A DNA stretch of 34,477 nucleotides from Planctomycetota bacterium (GTDB taxonomy: Bacteria > Planctomycetota > Planctomycetia > Gemmatales > Gemmataceae). Below the pieces are notes generated by a model. The model had not been told where the DNA came from. It saw nothing but the letters and a program-made list of their open reading frames with translations, and did no database searches. Below are positions 2,552 to 6,580 of this stretch, one piece after another. The translations under genes were made by a program, and so were the position numbers. The stretch is taken from positions 1-34,477 of the forward strand of contig JAKBCS010000049.1 of the NCBI GenBank assembly GCA_021807595.1, in the 5' to 3' direction. Positions within the stretch are counted from its first letter, which is position 1. Each line of letters begins with the position of its first letter.

Positions 2552-2581
2552 ATTATATCGCAACTTATTTTCCGAAGTCGA
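2552..2581 (-). promoter_or_regulatory. Predicted sigma-70-type promoter of nfo
   Basis: On the minus strand TCGACT (2576-2581) and a perfect TATAAT (2552-2557) are separated by 18 bases. This would give a leader of about 40 bases before the nfo ATG. The -35 box lies inside the last codons of the upstream membrane gene. Assigned by consensus only. Confidence 0.5.
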
Positions 2582-3599
2582 GATAATCCTGAAGGGAAGG
2601 CTCACTGCTTGAGGTGGGAGCGAATCGCGTCGAGTCGCGGACGAATTGTTGATAGGCGAGTGCCAACACCACTGCGATAGGCACGGTTGTAAGCACCAAG
2701 CGGCTGACGCCGCGTCCCGTCGAGCCGAAGCGGTTGAGAGGAGACCATTCGGGCAACCAACTCAACAGAGGCGCGAACAAAAGCGCAACGGCATGGCCAA
2801 GATCTAAGTTGCCGAAGTAGCGTCCCACGACAACGAGTGCAAAGAGTCCGACCACACTCAGTGAGACGGCGGTATCGAGATCGGGAGAATTCCTCGAGAT
2901 TCGAGCGGCCAGCGCACACCCCGTCACGGCTGCCGCCAACGCGACCCCGACCCCCGCGATGCTGGCGTAGCCTGAAAGCGCGACGGTCGCCGCCGCGCCG
3001 AGACAACTGAGAGCAACGGCCAACGGTACGACTTGGCTTTGCGTCTGACGTTGTAACTTGGACAGCAAACGCCATACGGTCGAGAGCGCCAGCCCCAGCA
3101 TAAAGAAGACCAAAACTGCCTGATAAGGCGTCCATCTGCGCGTGCCGGGTCCGGCCGAGTCGGAGACATAAACACTGCCGTACAAAAGTATCGGAGCGAC
3201 GCCGCCAGCCAGGAGAAGTCGCAAGCTCCAAATGAGCAAAGGGCGCATATGAAACGCCGCCGTCATTTCAACGCAAAACAACGAGGGCAATAAAACGAAC
3301 AAGAAGCGATCTTGATCGACACGCGGGGGCCAATGGGGTCGAACCATCAAGAGGCGACAGGCGACCGCCATCGCACTCGCCATGCCCAACAGATACCCAA
3401 GCGTACTCCGCCACCGATGTGGGGCATTCCAGGGCCAAGCCAGGAGCCAGACCACGATCGCCGCCGTCAACGCGCTCGCGGCAAACGCCTGCGCCAACAA
3501 TACCGGATCGGGAATGGCGTTCTCTCCTTCGGCGAACCGGCAGCGTAAGCTGCTGGGTAATTTGCCCGCACCTCGCGGCTTACGCTGCTGGTTCACCAT
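2565..3599 (-). CDS. Polytopic membrane protein of unknown function
   Basis: I do not recognise the family. The protein is about 345 residues with roughly nine hydrophobic segments (for example AFAASALTAAIVVWLLAWPW, FLFVLLPSLFCVEMTA, AVSLSVVGLFALVVVGRYFG), short loops and no catalytic motif, ending in a short soluble tail. The start is uncertain. ATG 3599 lies one base after the stop of the YceI gene, and an upstream ATG at 3626 would overlap that gene. The first roughly 25 residues from 3599 are encoded by a REP-like palindrome (3534-3594), which makes them doubtful. A GGAGAG site precedes an ATT codon at 3515, so a shorter protein starting after the palindrome is possible. Confidence 0.65.
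   Translation of the reverse strand: MVNQQRKPRGAGKLPSSLRCRFAEGENAIPDPVLLAQAFAASALTAAIVVWLLAWPWNAPHRWRSTLGYLLGMASAMAVACRLLMVRPHWPPRVDQDRFLFVLLPSLFCVEMTAAFHMRPLLIWSLRLLLAGGVAPILLYGSVYVSDSAGPGTRRWTPYQAVLVFFMLGLALSTVWRLLSKLQRQTQSQVVPLAVALSCLGAAATVALSGYASIAGVGVALAAAVTGCALAARISRNSPDLDTAVSLSVVGLFALVVVGRYFGNLDLGHAVALLFAPLLSWLPEWSPLNRFGSTGRGVSRLVLTTVPIAVVLALAYQQFVRDSTRFAPTSSSEPSLQDYLDFGK
3534..3594. repeat. REP-like palindromic element, 25-base arms
   Basis: The arms at 3534-3558 and 3570-3594 are inverted copies that match at 21 of 25 positions, around an 11-base loop. The conserved core is GCAGCGTAAGC. It lies directly downstream of the YceI stop and could fold in RNA from either strand. The shape and position resemble dispersed intergenic palindromes found in many copies in bacterial genomes. 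Only one copy is in this window, so dispersal is inferred. Confidence 0.6.
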
Positions 3600-3600
3600 A

Positions 3601-4179
3601 TTAGTGCGCTTTCTCGATGCCTTCAAAACTGATGGTGATATGCACGTCGTCGCCGATCGCTTCTTTCATTTTGTCCATCTCGAACTCCGAACGCTTCAAT
3701 ACCAACTCGGTGGTATACCCCGTGCGGCGGATGCCCTTGGGAAACTCGGCCTTGCGACCGCCAACGAGAACGAACTTGACCGCTTTGGTTGCGCCGTGCA
3801 TCGTCAGATCGCCGGTCACCGCGTAGCCCTCCTTGACCGCTTCGACGGCCGTACTCTTGAAGCTAAGAAGTGGAAATTGCTTGACGTTGAAGAAATCGGG
3901 GCTGCGCAAATGATCGTCGCGCTTGGTGTTGCCGGTGTCGATGCTCTCGGTTTTGATCGCCACTTGGAAGGCGCATTTGCCGGCGTCGGCGGGATCGATG
4001 CGGAACGCTCCGGACACGTCGTTGAAGCGGCCAAACGTCCAACTCAAGCCCAGATGCGACACGCGGAAGTTGACGCTGGTGTGCATGGCGTCCAACTCGT
4101 AAATCTGTGCCCGCGACAACGAGGGGAACGATCCGGCCAGGAGAAGGGCGACGGCAAACCGAACTACAGACTGGCGCAT
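3601..4179 (-). CDS. YceI-family secreted lipocalin-like protein
   Basis: The protein is 192 residues. An N-terminal signal peptide (MRQSVVRFAVALLLAGSF, likely cleaved after SRA) is followed by a full YceI domain. Family marks include YELDAMHTSVNFRVSHLG at its start, DDHLRSPDFFNVKQFP in the middle, GDLTMHGATKAV, and a closing strand region HITISFEGIEK. YceI proteins are periplasmic eight-stranded barrels that bind isoprenoid or other amphiphilic ligands, but the ligand here cannot be read from sequence. It follows csrA on the same strand with a 124-base gap holding an inverted repeat, so separate transcription is likely. Confidence 0.92.
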   Translation of the reverse strand: MRQSVVRFAVALLLAGSFPSLSRAQIYELDAMHTSVNFRVSHLGLSWTFGRFNDVSGAFRIDPADAGKCAFQVAIKTESIDTGNTKRDDHLRSPDFFNVKQFPLLSFKSTAVEAVKEGYAVTGDLTMHGATKAVKFVLVGGRKAEFPKGIRRTGYTTELVLKRSEFEMDKMKEAIGDDVHITISFEGIEKAH

Positions 4180-4219
4180 GACTTGGCTCCGTGCGAGAAG
4201 CGGGTTCCTATGGGAAAGA

Positions 4220-4258
4220 CCACCAGCGAACGGGGAACGCCGGACCGTTCGCGAGTGG
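4220..4258 (-). terminator. Hairpin between csrA and the YceI gene, possible csrA terminator
   Basis: A perfect 8-base inverted repeat (GCGAACGG at 4226-4233, CCGTTCGC at 4245-4252) is extended by CCAC/GTGG at its base across a small internal loop. It lies about 45 bases after the csrA stop. No T-run follows, so a classical intrinsic terminator is not assured. Confidence 0.35.
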
Positions 4259-4303: not shown

Positions 4304-4489
4304 CTACGCCTTTGCTTGTATCTCGTCTCGAGTGAGACGCTGCCAAAGCTCTTGGCGAAAGATGGGAACATGGGCCGGCGCGTCGATGCCAAGACGAACC
4401 ACATTGCCTCGACATTCGACAACCGTTAAGACGATCTCGCAATTGGGTATCACGATTTGCTCGCCGACTTTGCGACTGAGTACCAGCAT
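4304..4489 (-). CDS. csrA: Carbon storage regulator CsrA
   Basis: At 61 residues this is a full-length CsrA, the dimeric RNA-binding protein that blocks or alters translation by binding GGA motifs in mRNA leaders. The first strand MLVLSRKVGEQIVI and the core VRLGIDAPAHVPIFRQE match the family, including the RNA-contact arginines Arg6 and Arg45. Family members usually have His before Arg45, and here it is Phe. A strong AAGGAGG (4496-4502) sits 6 bases before the ATG. The leader has further GGA motifs, one in a small hairpin, suggesting autoregulation. A palindrome shared with the marR promoter lies about 62 bases upstream. Confidence 0.97.
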   Translation of the reverse strand: MLVLSRKVGEQIVIPNCEIVLTVVECRGNVVRLGIDAPAHVPIFRQELWQRLTRDEIQAKA

Positions 4490-4550: not shown

Positions 4551-4573
4551 GTTGACACGATCTTTGTGGCAAC
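4551..4573. promoter_or_regulatory. Predicted MarR operator upstream of csrA
   Basis: This is an imperfect palindrome GTTGACAC-N7-GTGGCAAC. It matches the reverse complement of the element over the marR promoter (5134-5156) at 19 of 23 positions. It lies between the marR 3' end and csrA, about 62 bases before the csrA ATG. MarR proteins bind such palindromes as dimers. Confidence 0.5.
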
Positions 4574-4616
4574 AAACAATTCTGCAAACAAAAAGACTCA
4601 CGCTCTCTGTCCGTTA

Positions 4617-5090
4617 TCACTTGTCGGCACGACGAGCCTTGACGAGCAGTCGATTGAGTTCGGTCAGTTCCGCAGTCGTCAGGTGCCCAAGCTGCTTTTT
4701 GTGCAACTCCACAACCGGGCGATCCATACGAGCCAGCAACTCGAGTCCGGCACGAGTGATGGATACCCGGACAACGCGGCGGTCGTCCGCCGCTCGGGTG
4801 CGCTCGACCAGGCCCGCTTCCTCCAAACGATCGACTAAACGGGTAATGTCGGGCATTCGCGTGATCATTTGCGCGGTGATTTCACAACACGGCAGGCCGT
4901 TGCCGCCGTGGCCGCGCAGAATGCGGAGTACGTTGTATTGGGGAGCGGAGAGATTGTGTTCCTGGAATAGTTGTTGGCATTGCTGATGGAGATGATCCAT
5001 CGTTCGACAGAGATTCAGAGCGGTTTCCTGTTCGAGAGAATCGAACGGGTTTTTCTTGCAGATTTCCTCTTGCAACACCGATTTCGCCAT
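4617..5090 (-). CDS. MarR-family transcriptional regulator, cysteine-rich
   Basis: The 157-residue protein has MarR architecture: N-terminal dimerisation helix, winged helix (recognition region near MPDITRLVDRLEEAGLVER and wing DDRRVVRVSIT, about residues 79-112) and C-terminal helices. MarR repressors release DNA on binding small ligands or on oxidation. Five cysteines are visible (11, 28, 38, 68, 69), more than usual, so thiol-based sensing is possible but unproven. Its promoter overlaps a palindrome at 5134-5156, fitting self-repression. It is followed by csrA on the same strand and is divergent from the enolase-superfamily gene. A GGGAGAG site precedes the ATG. The ligand is unknown. Confidence 0.92.
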   Translation of the reverse strand: MAKSVLQEEICKKNPFDSLEQETALNLCRTMDHLHQQCQQLFQEHNLSAPQYNVLRILRGHGGNGLPCCEITAQMITRMPDITRLVDRLEEAGLVERTRAADDRRVVRVSITRAGLELLARMDRPVVELHKKQLGHLTTAELTELNRLLVKARRADK

Positions 5091-5126
5091 TCGGACACTC
5101 TCCCTTGCTCATCCGTGACAGAAACA

Positions 5127-5155
5127 CTTATACGTTGCAACAGATATTGTGTCAA
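5127..5155 (-). promoter_or_regulatory. marR promoter
   Basis: On the minus strand a perfect -35 TTGACA (5150-5155) and a -10 TATAAG (5127-5132) are separated by exactly 17 bases, giving a leader of roughly 30 bases. The -35 box and most of the spacer lie within the operator-like palindrome. Confidence 0.7.
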
Positions 5156-5156
5156 C
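5134..5156. promoter_or_regulatory. Predicted MarR operator over the marR promoter
   Basis: The element reads GTTGCAAC-N7-GTGTCAAC on the plus strand, with 6 of 8 arm positions symmetric. It covers the -35 box and spacer of the marR promoter, where bound repressor would block RNA polymerase. It resembles the element at 4551-4573. The short sequence AGATATTGT seen here recurs once at 5182-5190 in the same intergenic region. Confidence 0.55.
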
Positions 5157-5332: not shown

Positions 5333-6580
5333 ATGACCGCTTCCACTCGTCGCTTGGTCCACAATCGTCGCGCCTTTCTTGCCGGAGCCGCAGCCGGGCT
5401 GGGTTTCTCGGTTTTGTCCGGTGCCGAACGGGTCGAGGAGCGTGCCAAAGACGCTCCCGTTGCCCGCAAAGATCCATTGAAGATCACAAAACTCGAAACC
5501 TTTCTCGTCAAACCGCGCTGGCTTTTTTTGAAGATTCACACCAACGCCGGCATCACCGGCTTGGGCGAGCCGATTCTCGAAGGGCGGGCCAAAACGTGCG
5601 CCGAGGCCGTCAAGGAGATCGAACCGTATCTCATCGGCAAAGATCCGCGCCAGGTCGTGCATCACTGGCAGGCCATCTATCGCCACGCCTTCTATCGGGG
5701 CGGACCGATCCTCACCAGCGCGCTCAGCGGCATCGACATCGCCTTATGGGACATCAAGGGCAAAGCGCTGGGCGTGCCGGTTTACGAACTGCTGGGCGGG
5801 CCGACGCGGCAGCGCGTGCGCGTCTATGCCCATGCCAAAACGCCGGAGAAGCTCACGGAGATGAAGGCGAAAGGCTTCACCGCGTTCAAGACGGGACCGG
5901 CCAAGAAACGACCGGCGCGCTATGTGGAAACACCTTCGGCGATCCGCCATGTCGCCGATTCCTTCGCCGAGCTGCGCAAGGCCGGCGGCGACGAGGTAGA
6001 CATCGCCATCGACTTTCATGGAGCCATCAGCCCGGCGACGGCCAAGCTGCTCATCAAGGCGCTGGAGCCGTATCAGCCGATGTTTATCGAGGAGCCGTGC
6101 CAGGCGCAAAATCACGACATCATGGCCGAGATCGCGCGCGGCACGCATCTGCCGATCGCCACCGGAGAGCGCGTGTTTACCAAGTGGGGCTTTCGCGAAG
6201 TGCTGGAAAAGAAGGCGGCGACGATCTTGCAGCCGGACTTGTGCCACGCGGGCGGCATCACGGAATGCCGACTGATCGCCGGCATGGCCGAGGCGTATTA
6301 CGCTGCCATCGCGCCGCATTGTCCGCTCGGTCCCATTGCGCTGGCTGCCGGCGTTCAGTTGGCGGCGTCCATTCCGAACTTTCTCGCCCAAGAGCAGGTG
6401 ACGCTCGGCGAAGGCTATCTGAAGCAACCCTTCAAGGTACACAAGGGCTATGTCGATCTGCCGACGGGACCGGGACTGGGCATCGAACTGGACGAGCATG
6501 CGCTGGCGAACAAGATCGATCACGATTGGAGAAACCGCGAGGAATACGACGCCGACGATGGGTCGGTGGTCGATTGGTGA
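5333..6580 (+). CDS. D-galactonate dehydratase-like enolase-superfamily enzyme with Tat-type leader
   Basis: From ATG 5333 the protein is 415 residues. AAGGAG ends 10 bases upstream. An ATG at 5324 is too close to that site. The N-terminus HNRRAFLAGAAAGLGFSVLSG has the twin arginine and hydrophobic stretch of a Tat or Tat-like leader. The body is a mandelate racemase/enolase fold. DFHG (Asp227, His229), FIEEP (251-255), TGER (Glu279), QPDLCHAGGITEC and APHCPLGPIALAA (His329) match the metal ligands and acid/base residues of DgoD, as does the ending WRN...DGSVVDW. DgoD removes water from D-galactonate to give 2-keto-3-deoxygalactonate. The sequence strongly supports the DgoD branch, but the true sugar acid and export are inferred. 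Confidence 0.85.
   Translation: MTASTRRLVHNRRAFLAGAAAGLGFSVLSGAERVEERAKDAPVARKDPLKITKLETFLVKPRWLFLKIHTNAGITGLGEPILEGRAKTCAEAVKEIEPYLIGKDPRQVVHHWQAIYRHAFYRGGPILTSALSGIDIALWDIKGKALGVPVYELLGGPTRQRVRVYAHAKTPEKLTEMKAKGFTAFKTGPAKKRPARYVETPSAIRHVADSFAELRKAGGDEVDIAIDFHGAISPATAKLLIKALEPYQPMFIEEPCQAQNHDIMAEIARGTHLPIATGERVFTKWGFREVLEKKAATILQPDLCHAGGITECRLIAGMAEAYYAAIAPHCPLGPIALAAGVQLAASIPNFLAQEQVTLGEGYLKQPFKVHKGYVDLPTGPGLGIELDEHALANKIDHDWRNREEYDADDGSVVDW

Follow-up and report, generated by a model that had tools for sequence, protein, structure and literature searches.

MarR-family proteins bind their operators as dimers, and a ligand or thiol chemistry releases the repressor. An autorepressed MarR gene beside a detoxification gene is a familiar arrangement. 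Among described systems, the quinone-sensing repressors MhqR and QsrR (Staphylococcus aureus, with MhqR also in Bacillus) come close to the locus considered here: they too pair a MarR repressor with a short palindrome at the operon that encodes it, and their regulons answer electrophile stress (PMC12893000), as may be the case here. MhqR uses a 9-9 bp palindrome and has no conserved cysteine, and QsrR relies on Cys4 with Cys29 or Cys32 (PMC12893000). On the side of the regulated genes, ubiquinone is a possible cargo of YceI lipocalins, and in Burkholderia one of these proteins gives protection from lipid peroxidation (PMC9113575). The oxidant-induced BcnA-LcoA pair of Burkholderia and other proteobacteria likewise consists of a YceI-lipocalin gene and an adjoining membrane-protein gene (PMC9113575).

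In the window (the whole stretch of DNA analysed here, 34,477 nucleotides), genes for a MarR regulator, a CsrA homologue, a YceI lipocalin and a predicted membrane protein follow one another on the minus strand. In our opinion, it is likely that the MarR protein represses its own gene and also the csrA-yceI unit, perhaps including the membrane-protein gene, through two 23-bp double-dyad operators. The steps that we infer, namely binding, repression, co-transcription and the signal, together with any RNA target of the window CsrA, would fit together as follows. Bound to operator 1, over the -35 element and the spacer, MarR would shut its own promoter; bound to operator 2, before csrA, it would either silence a weak promoter there or hold back passing polymerase. 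A ligand or electrophile, probably quinone-like or arising as oxidative stress, would free MarR from the operators, and MarR, CsrA and the YceI lipocalin would rise together. The layout of marR, gap operator and yceI is old, as the comparison below shows, and csrA would have been inserted later between operator 2 and yceI, so that an extra CsrA would have come under the MarR switch.

The marR gene (4617..5090, minus strand) encodes a protein of 157 aa, which matches the Pfam MarR domain (1.9e-11; 44 bits against a cut-off of 24.6) and for which a winged-helix (wHTH) structure is predicted, with a pLDDT of 82 for the model. No NCBIfam equivalog scores above its cut-off; the best is HpaR, with 53.7 of the 121.2 bits, in a library that possibly does not contain the MhqR model. 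As in the MarR family, a palindromic element is present at the gene's own promoter, according to both a repeat finder and a pattern search. The preliminary description had proposed a near-ideal marR promoter with a palindrome over its -35 and spacer, and we agree: TTGACA (5155-5150) and TATAAG (5132-5127) are separated by 17 bases and match 11 of 12 consensus letters, and this promoter (5127..5155, minus strand) is overlapped by operator 1.

Both palindromes are found where they had been placed. Read on the marR strand, operator 1 (5134..5156, minus strand) is GTTGACACAATATCTGTTGCAAC, and operator 2, in the marR-csrA gap (4551..4573, minus strand), is GTTGCCACAAAGATCGTGTCAAC; each is composed of two 8-bp dyads, GTTGNNAC and GTNNCAAC, with a spacing of 15 bp. 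The likeness of the two elements in opposite orientation, also part of the original claim, was recovered by the repeat finder as 24-nt arms that are 83% complementary. Operator 2 ends 61 bases before the ATG of csrA, close to the 62 or so first estimated.

It could be argued that the palindromes are no operators of MarR but fortuitous or structural repeats, such as mobile repeats or RNA elements, since inverted repeats in two copies are readily spotted by eye. We regard this as highly improbable. The pattern GTTGNNACNNNNNNNGTNNCAAC has exactly two copies in the genome of 5.67 Mb, both adjoining marR. The 12-letter pattern common to both elements, GTTGNNACN7GTNNCAAC, is expected by chance about 0.3 times per 5.7 Mb of random sequence; it occurs exactly twice in this genome and exactly twice in that of a relative from the same genus (G003, 6.5 Mb), at this locus only and with no further match elsewhere in either, and a reversed control pattern gives no matches in these genomes. 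Furthermore, the element recurs in the gaps of distant relatives, as described below. A wider regulon was considered and rejected: the remaining near-matches in the two genomes, with one mismatch to a 14-letter pattern, sit within long open frames.

Our reading of the palindromes as MarR operators can be compared with three other genomes of the same genus. Two of them are without this marR, and G003 alone retains marR-csrA-yceI. Only two genomes, G003 and that of the window, share the exact marR-csrA order, which tells against the proposal. The preliminary description expected the palindromes to be conserved in relatives that keep this order, and in G003, the sole such genome found, both are retained: each is identical at 22 of 23 positions, the one difference falling within the 7-base spacer. 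The identity between the two genomes drops to about 49% just upstream of marR, and the conserved stretch starts at about operator 1. Dyad operators are also present at the own promoters of many relatives, and these two observations strongly support the earlier claim that MarR represses its own gene.

The sequence beyond operator 1 leads toward a divergent neighbour (5333-6580, plus strand), a D-galactonate dehydratase-like enzyme (PRK14017), and it differs between the two genomes.

For operator 2, conservation in G003 by itself is weak to modest evidence: the sequences on its two sides already agree to 76% and 89% in the two genomes. MarR homologues at 120 loci, gathered from relatives and a wider genome collection, were also compared. 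A yceI gene lies beside marR in 30 of them, downstream in 27, and these loci belong to Planctomycetes, Acidobacteria, Gemmatimonadetes and others; csrA lies beside this marR only in the window genome and G003. Among the 27 loci where yceI is downstream, 14 have a near-perfect element in the marR-yceI gap (12 of 25 if the two csrA-bearing genomes are excluded), in Acidobacteria, Gemmatimonadetes and other groups, where about 0.5 loci would be expected at the threshold used (shuffle p<=0.02); examples are GTTGCAACGAATATCGTCGTAAC at L134 and GTTTAAACGAATATCGTTCAAAC at L126. The p-values are optimistic, since the pattern was relaxed to ten letters after some of the gap sequences had been viewed. 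About half of the marR-yceI loci examined are without such a gap element. Within a locus, promoter and gap sequences share on average 14.1 of 20 letters, compared with 13.4 across loci, and the best pairs reach 17-18 of 20. The layout of promoter and gap elements is thus often the same even in relatives whose operators are spelled differently.

Because the gap copies recur between marR and yceI and resemble the promoter copies of their own loci, operator 2 is best read as a long-standing operator of whichever gene follows marR, not one specific to csrA. A MarR tree, quick and with many weak forks, lends for that reason only mild support: it places the window MarR, with weak support, in a group whose members are mostly marR-yceI, and csrA is found in none of them outside the window genome and G003. 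The idea that csrA belongs to the MarR regulon stands in outline. The element is conserved in G003, and in many relatives it recurs ahead of the gene that comes next, so that membership of csrA in the same regulon as marR is supported; the second site, however, is not a csrA site in origin and belongs to the old marR-yceI pair.

A different role for operator 2 should also be weighed. It may be an auxiliary site for autoregulation, or a roadblock against readthrough, with csrA and yceI expressed mainly from constitutive promoters of their own. The candidate csrA promoter at operator 2 (4560..4588, minus strand; TTTGCA 4588-4583, N17, AAAGAT 4565-4560) is weak and was not picked up by a consensus scan, and the last 60 or so bases before yceI (4180-4240, minus strand), which are nearly identical in G003, unlike the rest of the csrA-yceI gap, could house a separate promoter. 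These conserved bases may be either a promoter or a site of RNA-level control. Nevertheless, we find an auxiliary role unlikely. Gap operators lie mostly 15-90 bp before the start of the next gene, be it yceI, DoxX or pirin, which fits an operator of that gene. The register of the csrA promoter candidate matches that in acidobacterial gap operators. An antisense promoter on the plus strand over operator 2 was dropped as a candidate; it has 10 of 12 letters by the scan and is weaker by eye in G003.

The csrA gene (4304..4489, minus strand), preceded by the Shine-Dalgarno sequence AAGGAGGT (4502-4495), encodes 61 aa and brings the number of CsrA homologues in the genome to seven; it matches Pfam CsrA (3.8e-21) and falls slightly below the TIGR00202 cut-off (65.2 of 70.1). 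CsrA proteins recognise GGA motifs in the leaders of their target RNAs, and the leaders of both csrA and yceI contain such motifs. RNA structure in either leader was rejected, as they fold no better than shuffled sequences.

Another homologue in this genome (L190, G000:C155:16335-18490; 261 aa) joins a CsrA domain and a response-regulator receiver domain in one protein (Pfam CsrA 1e-15, Response_reg 1.8e-14). Open frames of about 260-340 aa at csrA matches in several other genomes suggest that this fusion is retained there; no published description of it was found in the literature.

Where did the window csrA come from? The homologue that matches it best beyond the genus belongs to another genus (G020), where yceI and the gene for the same membrane protein come next and the whole lies beside a different, divergent MarR gene. 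A MarR of that divergent kind stands with yceI and the membrane-protein gene, but without csrA, in G055, and the window type of MarR does so in G012. The simplest account would be that csrA was acquired ahead of yceI as a lineage-specific addition, later than the marR-yceI layout; this could have been a single event accompanied by a change of MarR, or two separate events. One may then ask if csrA is a mere passenger, co-regulated with yceI by MarR while its protein has no special role in stress. We consider this possible, though it is not the reading we favour, and it is compatible with our main explanation of the DNA. Nearly all marR-yceI loci do without csrA, and there are six other csrA genes in the genome. 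On the other hand, CsrA is 90% identical in G003, and the presence of csrA-yceI beside a different MarR in the second genus means that the pairing is more than a one-off accident.

The older partner, yceI (3601..4179, minus strand; Pfam YceI 4.3e-42), is followed by the gene for the predicted membrane protein (2565..3626, minus strand), whose start codon is uncertain. The latter has no Pfam match and is conserved next to yceI in planctomycetes, being found near it in 25 of 33 planctomycete yceI loci.

As to the signal, the preliminary description had pointed to a small molecule or redox chemistry and to a cysteine-rich MarR. We accept the latter for the window protein, which has five cysteines (11, 28, 38, 68 and 69) in 157 aa where most relatives have one or two, but not for the family, in which only Cys68 is common (79 of 147 members); in the predicted structure it opens a helix of the DNA-binding domain. 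A conserved N-terminal sensing cysteine of the OhrR/QsrR type is absent from the family, C11 and C28 each occurring in 3 of 147 members. We consequently abandon redox sensing through several cysteines. In other relatives the gene after the gap encodes DoxX, pirin, a nitroreductase or a glyoxalase-superfamily protein, while in the window there is only yceI. Because these partner genes resemble electrophile-stress regulons, and in view of the YceI literature, they suggest, by analogy with MhqR and QsrR, that the switch responds to an electrophile, a quinone or oxidative stress.

The genome has a second MarR of the same family (L002, G000:C274:22500-22916), 47% identical to the first, with its own element GTGTGGACAACTATTGTTCCGAC upstream. 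Cross-talk between the two is possible.

The paired operator predicts binding sites for one MarR subfamily across several phyla. An extra csrA behind a neighbour's operator is not described in the open-access literature that we searched. We tentatively suggest that a local MarR switch recruited a dedicated CsrA, possibly repeatedly, and that an electrophile or quinone signal may thus directly set off post-transcriptional control, in which this CsrA would act on yceI mRNA or on the mRNAs of other stress genes. If so, a chemical stress signal would be tied to RNA-level control via one dedicated CsrA of several, and the locus would offer a small system for testing the role of a single CsrA homologue.

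How does this locus differ from the known ones? The closest solved sequence to the window MarR is the MarR-family protein of PDB 3u2r (E 8.7e-55), whose molecule name gives no target or ligand. NhaR of E. coli is a LysR-type regulator, not a MarR protein, and is not adjacent to csrA. It is a stress-responsive regulator that affects the Csr system (PMC6307784), as we propose for the window MarR. Compared with BcnA-LcoA, in which LcoA is a cytochrome b561, the window has a membrane protein that matches no Pfam family, together with two further genes, marR and csrA. Finally, the window MarR departs from MhqR and QsrR in its operator, which has another sequence, is a double dyad and is repeated before the next gene, and in its predicted targets, yceI and csrA.
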